Assembly: GCA_005883335.1 (NCBI GenBank)
Contig: VAXM01000081.1
Span: forward strand, 1-33,081
Length of the DNA stretch: 33,081 nt
Direction: 5' to 3'
Source: Actinomycetota bacterium
GTDB taxonomy: Bacteria > Actinomycetota > Thermoleophilia > Gaiellales > Gaiellaceae
Made by a program: the position numbers and the translations under genes. Within the stretch, counting starts at the first letter, position 1. Each line of letters begins with the position of its first letter. The notes below the pieces were generated by a model. That model was not told where the DNA came from and made no database searches. It saw nothing but the letters and a program-made list of their open reading frames with translations. Below, in pieces: positions 16,596 through 29,057 of this stretch.

Positions 16596-17990
16596 CTACG
16601 CGGCTTCGGGCTCGGCCTCGGGGATGACCGGTGCCTGCGGGCGGTGCGCGTGCCCGTGCCCGAGCAGGTGCCCGTGGGCCTCGGTTCCGTAGCCGCCCGG
16701 AACCGGGATGTAGAACTCGGGGTAGCCCCACATGCCGTGCTCGGAGACGTCCAGGCCGGCGGTTTCCGTCTCCTCCTCGACGCGGATGCCCCAGAGGCGC
16801 TTCATCGTCCAGAGGCACCCGAACGAGGCGGAGAAGGTAAACGCGCCGACGGCTGCGAGGCCGAGCAGCTGTATCCAGACCTGGTGCAGCGAGCCTGTGT
16901 AGACGAAGCCGCCGCGGCCCGTGTTCAGCGTCGCGGCGAGCGCCGGGACGGCGAAAAGACCGGTCGCCACGGTGCCCCACACACCCGAGACCCCGTGCAC
17001 GGCGACCGCGCCGATCGGGTCGTCGATTCCGATCCGCTCGACGGCCAGCACGCCGACGACTGCGATCACGCCCGCGACGAGGCCGATCACGACCGCGGCC
17101 CACGGGGCGACGAAGCCTGAGGCGGCGGTGACCGCGACGAGCGCGGCGAGGACGCCGTTCAGCATCATCGAGATGTCCGGCTTGCGGAGGACGAGCCACG
17201 CGGTGATTGCGCCGCTCACAGCTCCGGCCGCCGCGGCGAGGTTCGTCGTCAGCGCGACGTAGGCGAAGAAGCCGATCCGGTGGCCGGTGACCACGCTCAA
17301 CGTGGAGCCTGGGTTGAAGCCGAACCAGCCGAACCAGAGGATGAGCGTGCCGAGGACGGCGTACGGGATGTTGTGCCCGGGGATCGCGTTCCCGCGCCCT
17401 CCGTCGAACTTGCCGATCCGCGGGCCGAGGAGCAGCGCGCCCGCGAGCGCGGCCAGGGCGCCCTGGTAGTGGACGACCGTTGAGCCCGCGAAGTCCTGCA
17501 TCCCGAGCCCGAACAGCCACCCGCCGCCCCAGACCCAGTGCGAGGTGATCGAGTAGATGACCGTGAAGGCCGCGCCGAAGACGAAGTAGACCCAAAGCTT
17601 TGCGCGCTCGGCCATCGCGCCCCAGACGATCGCCAGCGAGACCCCGGCGAACACGACCTCGAAGAAGTAACCCGCAGCGCCCGGGATAGTCGTGAAGAAC
17701 GAGTACGGCGCCTTCCCGACCGACAGCAGCGAGTCGACCGAGGGTATGAAGCCGTGCGTGCCGATCACCTTGTTCCCGTCGCCGAACGCGATCCCGAAGC
17801 CGACCGCCCAGTAGACGAGCGAGCAGACGCCGAAGATCAGGACGTTCTTGCCGGCGATGTGAGCGGCGTTCTTCATCCGCGTCAGGCCAGCCTCGAGGAA
17901 CGCGAAGCCCGCCTGCATGAACATCACGAGCACGGCTGCGACGACGACCCACAGCGTATTGGCCGCGAGGAGAAGGTCGGAGTTCTTCAT
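16596..17990 (-). CDS. amtB: Ammonium transporter (Amt family)
   Basis: A 464-residue membrane channel with eleven expected helices that conducts ammonia/ammonium. Family signatures include MFMQAGFAFLEAGLTRMKNAAHI, DFAGSTVVHYQGALAAL with the first pore histidine, and GHNIPYAVLGTLILWFGWFGFNPGS. VHGVSGVWGTVATGLFA carries the second pore histidine. The cytoplasmic C-terminus is extended and His-rich (HGHLLGHGHAHRP), which could bind metal. The start ATG 17990 overlaps the PII stop as ATGA, the classic glnK-amtB pairing in which PII gates the channel. It is the fourth gene after the type II glutamine synthetase. Confidence 0.96.
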   Translation of the reverse strand: MKNSDLLLAANTLWVVVAAVLVMFMQAGFAFLEAGLTRMKNAAHIAGKNVLIFGVCSLVYWAVGFGIAFGDGNKVIGTHGFIPSVDSLLSVGKAPYSFFTTIPGAAGYFFEVVFAGVSLAIVWGAMAERAKLWVYFVFGAAFTVIYSITSHWVWGGGWLFGLGMQDFAGSTVVHYQGALAALAGALLLGPRIGKFDGGRGNAIPGHNIPYAVLGTLILWFGWFGFNPGSTLSVVTGHRIGFFAYVALTTNLAAAAGAVSGAITAWLVLRKPDISMMLNGVLAALVAVTAASGFVAPWAAVVIGLVAGVIAVVGVLAVERIGIDDPIGAVAVHGVSGVWGTVATGLFAVPALAATLNTGRGGFVYTGSLHQVWIQLLGLAAVGAFTFSASFGCLWTMKRLWGIRVEEETETAGLDVSEHGMWGYPEFYIPVPGGYGTEAHGHLLGHGHAHRPQAPVIPEAEPEAA

Positions 17991-18331
17991 GCCGCGTCCT
18001 CCAGCGGCCGGCCGGTCCGGTTGTGAGTGACATGGGCCACCGGGGTCGTCCAGACGAGCCCGTCGCCGGAATCGCTGCCGCTGCGCGCCGCGTCGGAGAC
18101 TGTTTCCGCGACCGCGGCCGCCAGGTGGTCGTCGACGACGAACGTCAGGAGCGCCTTCGGCAGGAACCGCGACTCGAAGACCCGCCCGCGGTACTCGTGC
18201 GTGATCCCGCGCTGGCGCCCGTGCCCGACCGCTTCGACCACCGTCACACCCACGTGGCCCGTCTGCTCTTCGACCGCATCGATCACGATCTCGACGCGCT
18301 CGCGGAGGACCACCGCCTCGACCTTGACCAT
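17987..18331 (-). CDS. Divergent PII-family nitrogen regulator
   Basis: A 114-residue PII-like trimer subunit that should gate the adjacent Amt channel. The fold is recognisable: VKVEAVVLRERVEIVIDAVEEQ, VTVVEAVGHGRQRG, the T-loop EYRGRVFESRFLPK and the C-terminal NRTGR. Key residues differ from classical PII. The uridylylated T-loop tyrosine (Tyr51 region, GAEY) is Phe here, and the nucleotide-binding GDGKIF segment reads GDGLVW. One of the two later arginines of the VRIRTG motif is lost. Covalent T-loop control as in E. coli is therefore unlikely. ATG 18331 is preferred over an upstream in-frame start at 18379 because a GAGGTGG site precedes it and it overlaps the acetyltransferase stop (TGATG). 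Confidence 0.88.
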   Translation of the reverse strand: MVKVEAVVLRERVEIVIDAVEEQTGHVGVTVVEAVGHGRQRGITHEYRGRVFESRFLPKALLTFVVDDHLAAAVAETVSDAARSGSDSGDGLVWTTPVAHVTHNRTGRPLEDAA

Positions 18332-18816
18332 CAGCCCACCACCTCGCTTCGTCGCTCCAGAAAGGTCACGTCCCGCCACATCCCGTGCATGCGGCCGATC
18401 CGCTCACGCGTCCCGACGACGCGGAAGCCAAAGCGCTGCAAGAGTCGGAGGCTCGGCTCGTTCTCCGGAAAGACGCCCGTCTCGAGCGTCCAGATCCCAC
18501 CGCGCTCGGAGCTCTCGATCAGCGCCGCGAGCAACTCCCGTCCCACACCCTCGCCGCGAGCGTCCTCCGCGACGTAGGTGCTCACCTCGGCCACGCCCGC
18601 GTAGCACTTCCGCGGCGACACCGGTGCCAACGCGATCCAGCCGACGACCCGCCCGTCCCGCTCCGCCACGAGGCGGTGCGCCGGCAGATGCGCGGCATCC
18701 CACGCCTCCCACGACAGCACCTCGGTCTCGAAGGTCGCATTGCCGGTCCGGATCCCTTCCGCGAAGATGCGCGCGACCTCCGGCCAGTCGTCAGGCCGAA
18801 GGTCGCGCAGGAGCAT
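18331..18816 (-). CDS. GNAT acetyltransferase, phosphinothricin acetyltransferase (PAT) like
   Basis: A 161-residue GCN5-related acetyltransferase. It opens LRDLRPDDWPEVARIFAEGI with TFETEVLSWEAWD, and the acetyl-CoA site is STYVAEDARGEGVGRELL. The end has ENEPSLRLLQRFGFRVVGTRERIGRMHGMWRDV, the pattern typical of PAT/YncA-like enzymes. Such enzymes acetylate glutamate-like amines such as phosphinothricin or methionine sulfoximine, both inhibitors of glutamine synthetase. It sits 3 bases after a glutamine synthetase and overlaps the PII gene, so protection of that enzyme is a reasonable but unproved role. The family is promiscuous and the true substrate may differ. Confidence 0.88.
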   Translation of the reverse strand: MLLRDLRPDDWPEVARIFAEGIRTGNATFETEVLSWEAWDAAHLPAHRLVAERDGRVVGWIALAPVSPRKCYAGVAEVSTYVAEDARGEGVGRELLAALIESSERGGIWTLETGVFPENEPSLRLLQRFGFRVVGTRERIGRMHGMWRDVTFLERRSEVVG

Positions 18817-18819
18817 CGG

Positions 18820-19863
18820 CTACGCCGCAAACGCGTCTTCGATCAGCGCCTGCGCGGTGACCGACTCGATCGTCTGCAGGATGCGGCCGGTGATGCGGTA
18901 CGGATCGGCCATCGAGTTCGGCCGACGATCTTCGAGGTAGCCACGGTGGCCGCTGTTGACGAAGCTGTGCGGGATGCGGATCGACGCCCCGCGATCGGCG
19001 ATGCCGTACGTGAAGTCGTCGATCGCCGCCGTCTCATGGAGCCCGGTCAGGCGCAAGTCGTTTTCGGGGCCGTAGCACGCGATGTGCTCGTCGCGCGCCT
19101 CCGAGAACGCGCTCATCAGCGCGGCGAAGTACTCCTCGCCGCCGATCTCGCGCAGGTGCTTCGTCGAGAAGTTCGTGTGCAGCCCCGAGCCGTTCCAGTC
19201 GACGTCGACGCCGAGCGGCTTCGGATGGAAGTTGACGTCGACGCCGTAGCGCTCGCAGAGGCGGAGCATCAGGTACCGCGCGATCCAGAGCTCGTCGGCT
19301 GCGCGCTTGGCGCCCTTGCCGAAGATCTGGAACTCCCACTGCCCCTTTGCGACCTCGGCATTCACGCCTTCGATCGCGATGCCGGCCTCGATGCAGAGGT
19401 CGATGTGCTCGTCGACGATCTGCCGCGCGATGTCGCCCACATTCTTGAAGCCGACGCCCGTGTAGTACTCGCCCTGCGGCGCGGGAAATCCCTCCTTCGG
19501 GAACCCGAGCGGCGAGCCGTCCTTGTACAGGAAGTACTCCTGTTCGAATCCGAACCAGGCGTCGGGGTCGTCTGCGATCGCGGCGCGGTTGTTCGACGGA
19601 TGCGGCGTTCCGTCGGGCAACAGCACCTCGCACATGACGAGGTGGCCGCGGTTGCGCGCAGGGTCGGGGAAGAGCGCGACCGGCTGGAGGAAGCAGTCCG
19701 AGCTCGAGCCGTCCGCCTGGCGTGTCGAGCTGCCGTCGAAGTTCCACAGCGGCAGCTGGTCGAGGGTCGGCTCCGTTTCGAAGTCGACGATCTTCGTCTT
19801 GCTGCGCAGGTTCGGAACGGGCTCGTAGCCGTCGAGCCAGATGTACTCGAGCTTGAACTTCAT
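18820..19863 (-). CDS. glnII: Type II (eukaryote-like) glutamine synthetase
   Basis: A 347-residue enzyme that makes glutamine from glutamate, ammonia and ATP. Length and motifs are those of the octa/decameric GSII class found in Streptomyces, Frankia and rhizobia. The motifs are LPLWNFDGSSTRQA, HPSNNRAAI, WFGFEQEYFLYK, AKGQWEFQIF, VDWNGSGLHTNFSTKHLRE and ASIRIPHSFVNSGHRGYLEDRRP. It lacks a GSI-type adenylylation region. ATG 19863 has a strong AGGAGG 7 bases upstream, which rules out the longer frame. It heads the operon with the acetyltransferase, PII and Amt genes. Its leader carries a terminator and a competing hairpin, implying attenuation control. Confidence 0.96.
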   Translation of the reverse strand: MKFKLEYIWLDGYEPVPNLRSKTKIVDFETEPTLDQLPLWNFDGSSTRQADGSSSDCFLQPVALFPDPARNRGHLVMCEVLLPDGTPHPSNNRAAIADDPDAWFGFEQEYFLYKDGSPLGFPKEGFPAPQGEYYTGVGFKNVGDIARQIVDEHIDLCIEAGIAIEGVNAEVAKGQWEFQIFGKGAKRAADELWIARYLMLRLCERYGVDVNFHPKPLGVDVDWNGSGLHTNFSTKHLREIGGEEYFAALMSAFSEARDEHIACYGPENDLRLTGLHETAAIDDFTYGIADRGASIRIPHSFVNSGHRGYLEDRRPNSMADPYRITGRILQTIESVTAQALIEDAFAA

Positions 19864-19890
19864 CCTGGTTCCTCCTCGTCTCGGACCAAC

Positions 19891-19925
19891 AAAAAAGGGC
19901 CCACGACTCTCTGGTCGTGAGGCCC
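19891..19925 (-). terminator. Intrinsic terminator inside the type II glutamine synthetase leader
   Basis: On the minus strand the stem is 19925-19914 paired with 19907-19897 (one bulged T at 19920), with a 6-base loop. Six T residues (plus-strand A at 19891-19896) follow directly. It lies between the stop of the serine protease gene and the glutamine synthetase Shine-Dalgarno, only about 28 bases before the start codon. The first bases of its 5' arm are also the 3' arm of an upstream hairpin (19919-19934), so the two cannot form together. It could simply end the protease transcript, but position and competing structure suggest an attenuator. Confidence 0.75.
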
Positions 19926-19959
19926 CAATGCCTCCGTGCCCGCCTTCGGCGGCAAGCAC
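19919..19959 (-). promoter_or_regulatory. Hairpins competing with the terminator in the glnII leader
   Basis: On the minus strand, hairpin P2 is GAGGC (19934-19930), loop ATTGGG, GCCTC (19923-19919). Its 3' arm is part of the terminator's 5' arm. One base upstream lies another hairpin (19959-19936): an outer 4-bp stem GTGC/GCAC, a 3-base bulge and an inner 5-bp stem with a GAA loop. P2 has a six-base loop with A at position 1 and G at position 4, the recognition pattern known for ANTAR antiterminator targets. The upstream hairpin does not have such a loop. Confidence 0.55.
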
Positions 19960-19966
19960 TGACCGC

Positions 19967-19995
19967 AACTTAGCTGAACAAACGGACGGCGTCTA
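19967..19995 (-). promoter_or_regulatory. Candidate promoter of the glnII operon
   Basis: On the minus strand TAGACG (19995-19990) and TAAGTT (19972-19967) are separated by exactly 17 bases and resemble -35 (4 of 6) and -10 boxes. The -35 box includes the stop codon of the protease gene. Transcription would start near 19960, exactly at the base of the first leader hairpin. Read-through from the protease gene is the alternative source of transcript. Confidence 0.45.
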
Positions 19996-23275: not shown

Positions 23276-24528
23276 AGCGGCTGCCGGCGACCACCGTCTA
23301 CTACGGCCTCACCTTCGGCCTTCGCCTACCGACGTGGGTCGTCATGGCCGTCTACCTCGTCCGGGAGCTGCACTTCTCGCCGCTGCAGCTCGTGCTGATG
23401 GGAACGGCGATGGAGGCCGCGGTGTTCCTGTTCGAGGTACCGACCGGAATCGTGGCCGACACGTACAGCCGCCGCCTGTCGCTCGTCATCGGCTACCTCG
23501 GCACCGGCGCGGCTTGGGCGGCTGTGGGCTTCGTCTCCGCCCCGTGGCTGGTCATTGCGCTCTGGGCGTTCTGGGGGTTCGCGTACACCTTCACGAGCGG
23601 CGCCGAGCAGGCGTGGATCACGGACGAGGTCGGCGTCGAGAACGTCGGCACGATCTTCCTGCGCGCGGCCCGCTTCGGGCAGGCGGGCGCGGTGGTCGGG
23701 CTCATTGCCCAGGTCGCGGTTGGCACCGTCTCGCTGCGCGGCGGCGTGATCCTGGGCGGCGTCTTCACGATCGCCTGCGGGCTGGCGGCGATCCTCTTCA
23801 TGCCCGAGACGGGGTTCGTGCGCCGCCCGCGCGAGGAGCGAGCGGCGCCAATCGCCGAGCTGCGCCGCACGGCCGTGAAAGGCGGGCGCTACGCCTGGGC
23901 GCAGCCGATCGTGATGCTGCTGATCGGCGTCGAGCTCTTCATGGGCACGTCGAGCGAGGCCTTCGATCGTTTGAAGGAGGCGCACTTCCTCCGAGACGTC
24001 GGCCTTCCCGCGGTCGGAAGCCTCGATCCGGTCGTCTGGTTCGGGATCTTCTGGCTCGCCGGGATGGTGCTCAACATCGCGGCGATCGGCGGCTTGATCA
24101 GGCGCGTCGAGCGCGGCGGCCGGCAGACCGTCGCGCAGTTCCTGTTCGGATTCACCGTCCTGGAACTGGCCGCGATGCTGCTCTTCGCGCTCACGGGCTC
24201 GACGTGGGCCGCGATCGGCGGCCTGCTCGGCGTCTTCTTCGCCCGCAACATGCAGGGCCCGCTCTACGACACCTGGCTGAGCAAGCAGATCACCGACTCG
24301 AGTGTCCGGGCGACGGTCTTCTCGATCACAGGCCAGGCAAACGCGGTCGGACAGGCCGGCGGCGGACCGGTTCTCGGCGTGCTCGGCAACGTCTGGGGGA
24401 TCCGGACCGCGCTGACGGCCGGGGCCCTTGCGATTGGGCCGGCGCTCGGCTTCTACGGCCGCGCGATCGCGCACGAGGGCCGGGAACCGGAGCTGGCTGA
24501 GTTGCCGCTGCCGGCTGCGGTAGACTGA
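23272..24528 (+). CDS. Major facilitator superfamily transporter
   Basis: A 418-residue protein with about twelve helices. It opens TTVYYGLTFGLRLPTWVVMAVYLVREL and has FEVPTGIVADTYSRRLSLVIGY, the loop-2 MFS motif with the conserved Gly-x-x-Asp and arginines. A long cytoplasmic loop (about residues 185-205) divides the halves. It resembles tetracycline/multidrug-type efflux proteins. It ends a four-gene overlapped operon. The stop at 24526-24528 is only 73 bases before the next start codon, and the glnA leader fills that gap. Confidence 0.92.
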   Translation: MKRLPATTVYYGLTFGLRLPTWVVMAVYLVRELHFSPLQLVLMGTAMEAAVFLFEVPTGIVADTYSRRLSLVIGYLGTGAAWAAVGFVSAPWLVIALWAFWGFAYTFTSGAEQAWITDEVGVENVGTIFLRAARFGQAGAVVGLIAQVAVGTVSLRGGVILGGVFTIACGLAAILFMPETGFVRRPREERAAPIAELRRTAVKGGRYAWAQPIVMLLIGVELFMGTSSEAFDRLKEAHFLRDVGLPAVGSLDPVVWFGIFWLAGMVLNIAAIGGLIRRVERGGRQTVAQFLFGFTVLELAAMLLFALTGSTWAAIGGLLGVFFARNMQGPLYDTWLSKQITDSSVRATVFSITGQANAVGQAGGGPVLGVLGNVWGIRTALTAGALAIGPALGFYGRAIAHEGREPELAELPLPAAVD

Positions 24529-24537
24529 CGAGGTTCG

Positions 24538-24579
24538 GAGGCGATGTGGCCTCGGGCGCTGGAGCGTCCGGGGCTTTTG
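24538..24579 (+). promoter_or_regulatory. glnA leader: hairpin overlapping an intrinsic terminator
   Basis: Hairpin P2 is GAGGC (24538-24542), six-base loop GATGTG, GCCTC (24549-24553). The same GCCTC starts a terminator stem, 24549-24559 paired with 24564-24574 (11 pairs including two G-U, 4-base loop), followed by TTTT. The two folds exclude each other. A possible -10 box TAGACT (24521-24526) would start RNA about 5 bases before P2. The design and the bases flanking P2 repeat those of the glnII leader. A plain terminator for the MFS operon is the simpler alternative. Confidence 0.6.
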
Positions 24580-24601
24580 TGTTTTGAAGGGAGGAAATGC
24601 G

Positions 24602-25966
24602 GTGGCGCAGGTCGAGAGCAAGCCGAGGGCGACAAGCGATCCGGAGGCGCGGAAGAAGGTGCTCGAGCGGATCAAGGACGAGGGGATCGAGTTTCTGCTC
24701 CTCTGGTTCACGGACATCGAGGGGCATCTGAAGAGCTTCGCCGTCACGCCGAGCGAGATCGAGGCCGCGCTCGACGACGGGATGGGCTTCGACGGGTCGT
24801 CAATCACGGGGTTCAACGCGATCGAGGAGTCGGACATGGTCGCGATCCCGGACCCGGCCACCTTCACGCCGATGCCCTGGAAAGAGGGCGAGACGAAGGT
24901 CGCACGGATGATCTGCGACGTCGTCACGCCGGACGGGCGGCCGTACGAGGGCGACCCGCGCTACGTCCTCCGCCGCGCGCTCGACCGGATGCGCGAGCTC
25001 GGCTTCGACACCTTCAACGTCGGCCCCGAGCTCGAGTACTTCCTCTTCAAGGACGACACCGGCACCGAGACGCTGGACGAGGGCGGCTACTTCGCGATGA
25101 CAACGATGGACGCCGCGAGCGAGCTGCGCCAGGAGACCGTGCGCGCGCTGGAGACGGTCGGAATCCCGATCGAGTACGTCCATCACGAGGTCGGGCCCTC
25201 CCAGCACGAGATCGACATGCGCTTCGCGCCGGCCCTGACGATGGCCGACCACACGGTCACGTACCGCCTGATCGTCAAGGAGATCGCGAAGAAGGCCGGC
25301 TACCACGCGACCTTCATGCCCAAGCCGATCTTCGGCGAGAACGGGTCGGGGATGCACACGCACCAGTCGCTCTTCAGCGACGGCCGCAACGCCTTCTTCG
25401 ACGGCGACGACGAGTGGCACCTCTCGGACGCGGGCAAGGCGTTCATCGCCGGTCAGCTCCGCCACGCGCGCGAGATCTCGGCGGTCTTCGCCCAGTGGGT
25501 GAACTCCTATAAGCGGCTCGTGCCGGGGTACGAGGCTCCCGTGTACGTCGCGTGGTCGCGGCGCAACCGTTCGGCGCTGATCCGGATCCCGCTGTACAAG
25601 CCGGGCTCCGAGCAGGCGACCCGCGCCGAGATCCGCTGCCCCGATCCGGCCTGCAACCCGTACCTCACCTTCGCGGCGCTGCTCCACGCGGGGCTCGAGG
25701 GCATCGAGCAAGGCTATGAGCTGCCCGAGCCGATGGAGACGAACCTCTACCACCTGACCCCGGAGCAGCGGCGGGAGCGCGGAATCGTCTCGCTGCCGGA
25801 GACGCTCGGCGAGGCGATCGACGAGCTCGCGCAGTCGGAGCTGGTGCGGAAGGCGCTCGGGCCGCACATCTTCGACCGCTACGTCGAGCTGAAGCGGAAG
25901 GAATGGGACGAGTACCGCGTGCAGCTGACCGACTGGGAGAAGGACCGCTACCTCGCGGTTTTGTAG
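24602..25966 (+). CDS. glnA: Type I glutamine synthetase (GSI-alpha like)
   Basis: A 454-residue dodecamer-class glutamine synthetase. Motifs are FDGSSITGFNAIEESDM, GPELEYFLF, VGPSQHEIDMRF, the ATP-site FMPKPIFGENGSGMHTHQS and NRSALIRIP. The C-terminal half matches Bacillus/Thermotoga GSI-alpha (NLYHLTPEQRRERGIVSLPETLGEAI, then WDEYRVQLTDWEKDRYL). GSI-alpha enzymes are normally controlled by feedback and protein binding, not by adenylylation. I chose GTG 24602 because GGGAGG lies 7 bases upstream; TTG 24584 in the same frame lies before that site and inside the leader. It is the second glutamine synthetase in the window, unrelated in class to the one at 18820-19863. Confidence 0.96.
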   Translation: MAQVESKPRATSDPEARKKVLERIKDEGIEFLLLWFTDIEGHLKSFAVTPSEIEAALDDGMGFDGSSITGFNAIEESDMVAIPDPATFTPMPWKEGETKVARMICDVVTPDGRPYEGDPRYVLRRALDRMRELGFDTFNVGPELEYFLFKDDTGTETLDEGGYFAMTTMDAASELRQETVRALETVGIPIEYVHHEVGPSQHEIDMRFAPALTMADHTVTYRLIVKEIAKKAGYHATFMPKPIFGENGSGMHTHQSLFSDGRNAFFDGDDEWHLSDAGKAFIAGQLRHAREISAVFAQWVNSYKRLVPGYEAPVYVAWSRRNRSALIRIPLYKPGSEQATRAEIRCPDPACNPYLTFAALLHAGLEGIEQGYELPEPMETNLYHLTPEQRRERGIVSLPETLGEAIDELAQSELVRKALGPHIFDRYVELKRKEWDEYRVQLTDWEKDRYLAVL

Positions 25967-26406: not shown

Positions 26407-26412
26407 GGGTTG

Positions 26413-27822
26413 GTGGACGAAACCGGTCGCCACCTGCGCCTCCTGACCGAGACGATCGCGGCGGTCAACTCGACGCTCGATCTCGAGGAGGTGCTCTCCC
26501 TCGTCGCGAGCAAGGTTGCGGACGCGCTCGACGCCGACGCGTGCTTCGTCTACCTCTACGACGAGCAGGCCGACGAGCTCGTGCTGCGCGCGACGCACGG
26601 CACGCGGGTCGAGGAGATGACCGGCCGCCCGCGGATGCGCCCGGGAGAGGGCATCACAGGGTCGGCCGCCGAGGCGCGGGCGCCTGTGATGATCCCGGCA
26701 CAAGCGCACCTGGACGAGCGCTTCAAGGCGTTCCCGAACTTGCCCGAGGACGAGTACGAGTCGATCCTCGCGGTGCCCATCCTGGCCCGGGAGAAGCTTG
26801 AGGGCGCGGTGAACGTCCGAACACGCGAGCCGCGCGACTTCAGCGCGGCGGAGATCGAGCTGCTCCTGGCGATCGCCGCCCAGGTCGCGCAGACGATCGA
26901 GCACGCGAAGCTCTACGCGCAGGCGCAGCGCCGGGTCGACGAGCTCGAGGCGCTGGCGCGGATCTCCGAGGCCGTGTCCGAGTCGCTGTACCTCGAGGAG
27001 TCGCTGGAAGCGATCGTCGAGGCGACGGTCGACGCTGTGGGGGCAACCGGCGCGGCGCTCGTGCTCGAGGACGGCGAAGTCGTCTGGCCGGAGGGCCGCG
27101 CGGGGAAGCATGCGGTACGCGTGCCCTTGCGGTGGAAGGGGCGCCAGGTCGGGGAGCTCGTCTGCGACCGGGACACGCCGTTCTCGTCGGACGATCGCGC
27201 CCTGCTCGGCTCGATCGCAAGCCACGCGGCGGTTGCGCTCGAGCACGGGCGGGCGGTGCTGCGCGGCGTGCTGGCCCAGGAGATCCACCATCGCGTCAAG
27301 AACAACCTGCAGACGGTCGCGTCGCTGCTCCGGCTGCAGGCGCGGACGGATGAGGTCGACGCGCAGAAGGCGCTGAACGACTCCGTGAACCGGATCCTCG
27401 CGATCGCTGCGGTGCACGAGGTGCTGACAGAGCGCCGCGACGACGACGTGGAGCTGGACGAGCTGCTCGACCGGCTGCGCGCGATGCTCGTGCAGGGGCT
27501 GGGGACGGCGAAGACAGTTGAGGCGTCGTTGGAGCCGGTGTCGCTGGGAGGAAACCGGGCGACGGCGCTCGCGCTCGTGTTTTCGGAGCTTCTTCAGAAC
27601 GCGCTCGAGCATGGCGGCGACGCGGTGCGCGTAGAGCTGGCGCGCCGTGACGGCGAGGTCGTGCTTTCCATCGCGGACGACGGGCACGGGCTCGAGGGCG
27701 AGCCTGCTTCCGGGACGGGGCTTTCGATCGTGCGCGCGCTCGTCCAGGACGAGCTCGGCGGGCGGCTTGCGCTCGAGTCGGACGGCGGGCTCAGGGCCGA
27801 GGTCGTGTTCCCGGCGACCTGA
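26413..27822 (+). CDS. pdtaS: GAF-domain sensor histidine kinase (PdtaS type, HisKA_2)
   Basis: A 469-residue cytoplasmic kinase without membrane helices. Two GAF-like domains occupy about residues 20-165 and 185-282. A HisKA_2 dimerisation domain follows with QEIHHRVKNNLQTVASLLRLQ; the phosphorylated His is 292 or 293. The C-terminal HATPase shows SELLQNALEHGG, SIADDGHGL and GTGLSIVRALV. This is the architecture of kinases paired with ANTAR response regulators (PdtaS in mycobacteria, which has GAF and PAS). The likely partner lies at 28485-29057, separated by one reversed gene. GTG 26413 is preferred over TTG 26410 because of the -10 box. The GAF ligand is unknown. Confidence 0.92.
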   Translation: MDETGRHLRLLTETIAAVNSTLDLEEVLSLVASKVADALDADACFVYLYDEQADELVLRATHGTRVEEMTGRPRMRPGEGITGSAAEARAPVMIPAQAHLDERFKAFPNLPEDEYESILAVPILAREKLEGAVNVRTREPRDFSAAEIELLLAIAAQVAQTIEHAKLYAQAQRRVDELEALARISEAVSESLYLEESLEAIVEATVDAVGATGAALVLEDGEVVWPEGRAGKHAVRVPLRWKGRQVGELVCDRDTPFSSDDRALLGSIASHAAVALEHGRAVLRGVLAQEIHHRVKNNLQTVASLLRLQARTDEVDAQKALNDSVNRILAIAAVHEVLTERRDDDVELDELLDRLRAMLVQGLGTAKTVEASLEPVSLGGNRATALALVFSELLQNALEHGGDAVRVELARRDGEVVLSIADDGHGLEGEPASGTGLSIVRALVQDELGGRLALESDGGLRAEVVFPAT

Positions 27823-28484: not shown

Positions 28485-29057
28485 GTGCGAATCCTGATCG
28501 CCGAAGACGAGACGATCATCCGGCTCGACCTCAAAGCCCTGCTCGAGCGCGCGGGCTTCGAGGTCTGCGCCGAGGCGAAGGACGGCCAGGAGGCAGTCGA
28601 GCTCGCACGGCGGGAGCAGCCCGACCTCGCCGTGCTCGACGTCAAGATGCCGCGGCTCGACGGAATCGAAGCCGCTCGCCGGATCCTCGACGAGCGCCCG
28701 ATCCCGATCGTGATGCTGACGGCGTACGGCCAGGACGAGCTCGTCTCGCGCGCGCTCGAAGCCGGCGTCTTCGGCTACCTCGTGAAGCCGTTCCGCGAGC
28801 AGGATCTCCTGCCCGCGATCCGGACGGCGCGGGCGCGTCACGACGAGCTCGCCGCGCTTCGGGAACAGGCGGACTCGCTCGCCGAGGCGCTCGAGGCGCG
28901 CAAGGCGATCGAGCGGGCCAAAGGGCTGCTGATGGAGCGCGAGAGCCTGACCGAGCAGGAGGCTTTCGCGCGCCTGCGGAAGGCCAGCCAGGTGTCCGGC
29001 AGGCCGATGAAGGTCGTGGCTGAGGCGGTCGTCGCGACCTTCGATCGCAGTCCCTGA
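28485..29057 (+). CDS. pdtaR: ANTAR-domain response regulator (PdtaR type)
   Basis: A 190-residue RNA-binding response regulator. The receiver domain (1-120) has the acidic pair in IAEDE, phospho-acceptor Asp52 in LAVLDVKMPRLDG, Thr79 in MLTAYG and Lys101 in LVKPF. The C-terminal ANTAR domain (about 130-186) reads ALEARKAIERAKGLLMER, then LTEQEAFARLRKASQVSGRP, the conserved three-helix pattern. ANTAR proteins bind hairpins with six-base loops and prevent intrinsic termination. The nearby glutamine synthetase leaders are candidate targets. GTG 28485 fits a leaderless start. Confidence 0.95.
   Translation: MRILIAEDETIIRLDLKALLERAGFEVCAEAKDGQEAVELARREQPDLAVLDVKMPRLDGIEAARRILDERPIPIVMLTAYGQDELVSRALEAGVFGYLVKPFREQDLLPAIRTARARHDELAALREQADSLAEALEARKAIERAKGLLMERESLTEQEAFARLRKASQVSGRPMKVVAEAVVATFDRSP

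Follow-up and report, generated by a model that had tools for sequence, protein, structure and literature searches.

A conserved leader with two mutually exclusive folds precedes ammonium-assimilation genes in a family of Thermoleophilia and points to ANTAR-type antitermination

The DNA studied, here called the window, is the whole 33,081-nucleotide (nt) stretch at positions 1-33,081 of the forward strand of contig VAXM01000081.1 (assembly GCA_005883335.1; Actinomycetota, Thermoleophilia, Gaiellales, Gaiellaceae). On its minus strand a 129-base gap, read from the sequence, separates a protease-like gene from glnII, the gene for a type II glutamine synthetase (GSII), and the leader in this gap is a conserved on/off switch with two exclusive folds. 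We consider it very probable that the switch works by transcription antitermination of the ANTAR type, is regulated by phosphorylation and serves an ammonium-assimilation regulon. The protein that would hold its two hairpins is probably an RNA-binding regulator whose gene lies in the same cluster. Most ammonium-assimilation genes of this one family of soil bacteria have the same leader in front of them. Protein binding, phosphorylation and a nitrogen signal, together with its direction, are what we infer from the comparisons below. A preliminary description of this DNA had read the gap as a switchable leader, and that interpretation as a whole is supported and largely holds.

Two exclusive folds in the glnII leader

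Both hairpins named in the preliminary description, here P1 and P2, are present in the leader sequence, as is the intrinsic terminator with its six T residues; the coordinates are collected in Table 1. The 3' arm of P2 lies, as had been claimed, within the terminator stem, so that P2 and the terminator are mutually exclusive. P1 closes the hexaloop GCCGAA (19950-19945), one base separates it from P2, and P2 closes the hexaloop ATTGGG (19929-19924), which indeed carries A at position 1 and G at position 4 (A1 and G4). The terminator pairs GGGCC.CACGAC with GTCGTG.GGCCC (19925-19897) around the loop CAGAGA and is followed by the T residues at 19896-19891; the ATG of glnII is at 19863, all on the minus strand.

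The minimum-energy fold of the whole leader consists of P1 and the terminator. Folded alone, the half with P1 and P2 reaches -23.9 kcal/mol (z-score -3.7, with no shuffled sequence as good) and the terminator half -19.7 kcal/mol (z-score -3.1). Among 118 leaders, the terminator state is preferred over the antiterminator state by a median of 6.4 kcal/mol, and in 117 of them the P2 3' arm is paired in the terminator fold, with at least three of its five bases. As the terminator state is the more stable, termination is the expected default and P2 should need help. Generic scans were of little use here: a sigma-70 promoter scan called no promoter and did not pick up the -35-like and -10-like elements of glnII, and while a terminator scan detected the glnII terminator, terminator-like sites were no commoner than in shuffled sequences. 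The argument that the leader goes beyond chance therefore rests on conservation.

Conservation was followed in 103 family genomes, whose assemblies vary in completeness. A first covariance model (R1, threshold E 0.05), trained on nine glnII leaders, matched in 80 of these genomes, and a second model built from 85 of the R1 matches (R2, threshold E 0.001) matched in 89. The leader also precedes glnII in relatives whose GSII is 74-92% identical. Absence of the GAGGC/GCCTC hairpin from relatives had been set beforehand as grounds for giving up the idea of a switch; the hairpin is conserved, both in the genomes matched by R1 and in the alignment of 85 leaders. In the genome of the window itself, R2 matches exactly two sites, upstream of glnII and of glnA, and both are in the window. 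Beyond the family, the R2 search at class level gave five matches in the sister families f2 and f3 of the order and four weak ones elsewhere in the class, a phylum search of a 296-genome sample (E 1e-4) gave none outside the family, and three GSII homologues from non-family genomes (L009, L010, L037) have, by eye, no such leader. At the sensitivity of this model, the class and phylum searches thus place the arrangement mostly within this one family.

The alignment of 85 leaders was fitted to the covariance model, so that its pair counts are biased toward that model. All nine pairs of P1 and all five tested pairs of the terminator show changes on both sides, and the two elements together hold 249 double-change cells, where shuffled versions have 74 and slid ones no more than 56. 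In the P2 stem 96% of the cells are paired, two of the five pairs have changes on both sides and two never vary; covariation is limited here because P2 is so conserved.

The loops are nearly constant in length and in one base. They have six bases in 83 of 85 leaders for P1 and 84 of 85 for P2, with G4 in 82 of the 83 and in all 84, respectively, and the distance from the first loop base of P1 to that of P2 is 20-22 nt in 78 of the 85. When leaders were folded freely, without the register of the model, a 4-bp hexaloop hairpin was recovered upstream in 46-50 of 94, depending on the folded length, and 45 of 46 P1 loops so recovered carry G4. A TANNNT hexamer lies 27-41 nt upstream of P2 in 73 of the 94 dual-hairpin leaders, a placement that suggests an RNA start near the foot of P1. 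Two short motifs are without explanation: GGTCC (or GGACC) stands directly after the U-tract (19886-19882 in the window) in 56 of 113 leaders, where about 0.016 per leader is expected, and GTCCG recurs within the promoter spacer.

Table 1. Leader elements and genes of the window
Feature	Coordinates	Strand	Details	Basis
Putative glnII operon promoter	19967-19995	-	-35-like TAGACG 19995-19990, 17-nt spacer, -10-like TAAGTT 19972-19967	sequence
P1 hairpin	19936-19959	-	9 bp; GTGCTTGCC 19959-19951 / GGCGGGCAC 19944-19936	folding and conservation
P2 hairpin (antiterminator)	19919-19934	-	GAGGC 19934-19930 / GCCTC 19923-19919	sequence and folding
Intrinsic terminator with U-tract	19891-19925	-	5' arm contains the P2 3' arm	terminator scan and folding
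Shine-Dalgarno of glnII	19871-19877	-	GAGGAGG	sequence
glnII, type II glutamine synthetase	18820-19863	-	91-92% identical to L033, L034	Pfam Gln-synt_N and Gln-synt_C
GNAT acetyltransferase, second operon gene	18331-18816	-		Pfam
P-II signal protein	17987-18340	-	E 2e-15	Pfam P-II
Ammonium transporter amtB	16596-17990	-	E 3e-110	Pfam Ammonium_transp
glnA leader	24521-24578	+	-10-like TAGACT 24521-24526; P2 GAGGC-GATGTG-GCCTC 24538-24553; terminator 24549-24574 with TTTT; no P1	
glnA, type I glutamine synthetase	24602-25966	+	GTG 24602 the more likely start	Pfam; orthologous starts and Shine-Dalgarno positions
Sensor kinase, cytosolic type	26410-27822	+	GAF-HisKA_2-HATPase, PdtaS/EutW-like	Pfam
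REC-ANTAR response regulator	28485-29057	+	candidate leader binder; 106 and 72 bits, above curated cut-offs	Pfam Response_reg and ANTAR

The genes behind the leader and the single-hairpin glnA class

Inspection of 116 leader sites showed that 110 directly precede nitrogen or receiver-domain genes, mostly of types that had not entered the training of the model. Downstream of the leader stand a paralogue of type I glutamine synthetase (GSI) at 32 sites, GSII at 21, the GSI/glnA orthologue at 19, an orthologue of the ammonium transporter (Amt) or P-II at another 19, mostly in P-II-amtB operons, a divergent Amt at 11, a receiver-domain gene at seven and, at one, a GNAT gene situated before P-II in an operon that carries the leader; two of the remaining six sites are truncated by locus ends. 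From a comparison of the genome lists, in which incompleteness is a caveat, the second glutamine synthetase under leader control is GSII in some genomes and the GSI paralogue in others, and apparently never both in one genome. One genus has two complete leaders in direct succession (G212:C78, G213:C141, G110:C68, G114:C24, G211:C3), and in the loci checked these tandem leaders precede a divergent Amt gene. At three other loci the gene after the leader encodes a HAD-type hydrolase (L199), a 5-FTHF cyclo-ligase-like protein, with an ABC transporter behind it (L208), or a circularly permuted ATP-grasp protein (L219); the hydrolase, cyclo-ligase-like and ATP-grasp genes are possible further members of the regulon.

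Five leaders (L174, L176, L207, L212, L217) stand before genes for receiver-only proteins, which share about 60-69% identity with the ANTAR regulator's receiver and carry a tail of about 50 residues with a WPLRI-like motif in place of the ANTAR domain. At L207 and L212 this gene is followed by another receiver gene, which in L207 encodes a REC-ANTAR protein. The receiver-only proteins are possibly feedback decoys.

The second leader of the window, that of glnA, belongs to a class with a single hairpin. The model match at 24513-24582 has E 1.8e-6 within the window and, with R2, E 1.8e-8 in the whole genome. The listed glnA start, TTG 24584, lies within this leader beside the terminator, and GTG 24602, which follows GGGAGGAAA, is likelier. 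In all 19 glnA leaders (that of the window, 24521-24578, and L150, L188, L194, L201, L203, L204, L210, L214, L215, L220-L226, L228 and L229) a TANNNT hexamer ends 9-18 nt upstream of P2, in the place of P1. P1 was not found by folding in these leaders, and the pair of hairpins expected of an ANTAR target is accordingly missing from the subclass. From the position of the hexamer the RNA would start 2-11 nt before P2, and, if this start is right, each glnA leader would present one hexaloop only. These single-hexaloop leaders would then be the least expected feature of the system, and they would break the two-hairpin rule. We put forward only tentatively, and with more doubt than the switch itself, the broader picture of a Thermoleophilia family whose ammonium-assimilation regulon is run by PdtaR-like ANTAR antitermination and takes in both this P1-less glnA class and receiver-only phosphate decoys that could act in feedback.

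The candidate regulator and the alternatives

A kinase gene and a REC-ANTAR regulator gene lie beside glnA in the window. The closest solved relatives of the regulator are Rv1626/PdtaR (1s8n, E 4e-51) and EutV (6wsh, E 1e-38). In an alignment read by eye, the EutV contact residues Arg142, Lys143, Lys149, Glu160 and Arg168 are kept, Tyr164 is replaced by Phe and Lys147 by Arg. An orthologue of the regulator, scored as a strong match, is found in 92 of the 103 family genomes. In 31 genomes it shares a contig with a leader, and in every one of these the two are no more than 12 kb apart, even where the contig measures hundreds of kb to Mb. Genomes that lack the leader also tend to lack the regulator (83/6/9/5 genomes with both, leader only, regulator only and neither; Fisher p 0.007), which speaks for a link between the two. 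The preliminary description had proposed an ANTAR target from the second hexaloop; the proposal is strengthened by the first, also a hexaloop with G4, by the REC-ANTAR and kinase genes in the window, and by the leaders before other nitrogen genes.

A mechanism of the following kind would fit these observations. The RNA would start at the foot of P1, and when the regulator is absent the terminator would capture the 3' arm of P2, so that transcription stops at 19896-19891. The linked GAF-HisKA_2 kinase may phosphorylate the REC-ANTAR protein, a dimer of which would bind the hexaloops of P1 and P2, mainly through G4, and hold P2. The P2 so held would deprive the terminator of its lower GC pairs, and polymerase would continue into glnII-GNAT-P-II-amtB. 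The identical switch would control the wider ammonium-assimilation set of the family.

Several points weigh against this interpretation. The bases at loop position 1 depart from the canonical A: P1 has G in 72 and A in only 5 of 83 loops, the window among those with G, and although P2 has A in 59 and G in 23 of 84, with A in the window, an A in both loops, as in canonical ANTAR targets, is not the rule here. In EutV targets, mutation of A1 lowered induction. With P1 paired over 9 bp, the linker between the hairpins is 1 nt, against 5-12 nt in the eut leaders. The EutV residues Met172, Asn173, Arg175 and Arg177, which contact the RNA backbone or act as a plug, are not kept in the regulator, as read by eye from the alignment. 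The co-occurrence of leader and regulator is confounded by genome incompleteness. Finally, the genome of the window encodes a second ANTAR protein (G000:C163) that could be the binder. As A1 is lacking in P1, we say of the leader that it works like an ANTAR target, and we treat it as a variant.

The second ANTAR protein leads to the alternative that the leader is an antitermination switch, only with this or some other factor as binder and with a signal other than nitrogen. The differences from EutV at several contact positions would be in keeping with it, as would the response of the mycobacterial PdtaS/PdtaR pair to Cu and NO (PMC8131098). We regard it as unlikely, given that the regulator of the window is syntenic with leaders in each of the 31 informative genomes and that the targets are nearly all ammonium-assimilation genes.

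A ligand-sensing riboswitch, for glutamine for example, or another attenuator that works independently of protein would share the terminator/antiterminator anatomy, which is by itself compatible with either. A glutamine riboswitch family is known before glutamine synthetase genes in cyanobacteria. The leader, however, matches no Rfam family, glutamine riboswitches included, at the gathering threshold or even at E 1, its conserved unpaired bases are confined to the hexaloop positions with no larger pocket, and its antiterminator is less stable than its terminator, all of which makes a riboswitch very improbable. The gap does lie downstream of the protease stop codon, and terminator-like sites occur at shuffle frequency, as would suit an ordinary terminator of the protease gene preceded by a chance hairpin. 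Among the loci, only 2 have the protease gene upstream, whereas the leader precedes many different genes, and in most leaders a -10-like hexamer separates P1 from the upstream gene. The terminator as the protease's own was rejected, the leader being conserved with the downstream genes, and we find this last explanation barely credible.

Comparison with known antitermination systems

Bacteria that have been studied more closely control nitrogen assimilation mostly through DNA-binding regulators (NtrC, GlnR, NtcA). Here an RNA switch appears to set the core nitrogen genes in a soil lineage that is largely uncultured, with targets clean enough for direct testing. The roughly 116 natural leaders, with G1 in P1 and with the P1-less glnA class, could also serve to probe two assumptions about ANTAR recognition, namely that it depends on A1 and that it depends on a pair of hairpins.

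Among the closest known systems is that of EutV/EutW and the eut leaders in Enterococcus faecalis, with which the present one shares dual hexaloops, G4, the overlap of P2 with the terminator, and a kinase with a REC-ANTAR regulator (PMC3369931, PMC8934654). EutV requires two hexaloop hairpins, each with A1 and G4, a linker of restricted length between them, and mutual exclusion of P2 and the terminator (PMC3369931). In its structure G4 stacks on Tyr164 while A1 has no specific contact (PMC8934654), contacts that fit a family of leaders with a fixed G4 and a relaxed position 1. The loop-to-loop distance is similar, 24 nt in eutP (positions 29 and 53) and 21 here. On the other hand, the eut system serves ethanolamine use and has A1 in both loops, whereas the leaders of this family mostly have G1 in P1 and stand before ammonium-assimilation genes.

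The NasR-nasF and NasT leaders of Proteobacteria are likewise hexaloop leaders for ANTAR antitermination of nitrogen genes. Both differ from the system of the window in being nitrate-responsive; NasR has another sensor domain, NasT is released by NasS, and neither works with such a kinase. GnfR of Geobacter, which is credited to Ueki and Lovley (2010), reportedly acts on the same class of target genes. The ANTAR targets predicted by Ramesh et al. (2012) include P-II, ammonium transporters and glutamine synthases (in Desulfotomaculum, for example), the same gene class as here, but in Firmicutes and Proteobacteria. A survey of actinobacterial ANTAR RNAs reported few RNAs before terminators, and a search of its text found no Thermoleophilia, Gaiella, Conexibacter or glutamine synthetase (PMC8164766). 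PdtaR of the mycobacterial PdtaS/PdtaR system is the closest protein relative of the regulator by sequence (1s8n), and that system answers Cu and NO (PMC8131098). Our results suggest a role for a PdtaS/PdtaR-type pair beyond the mycobacteria.
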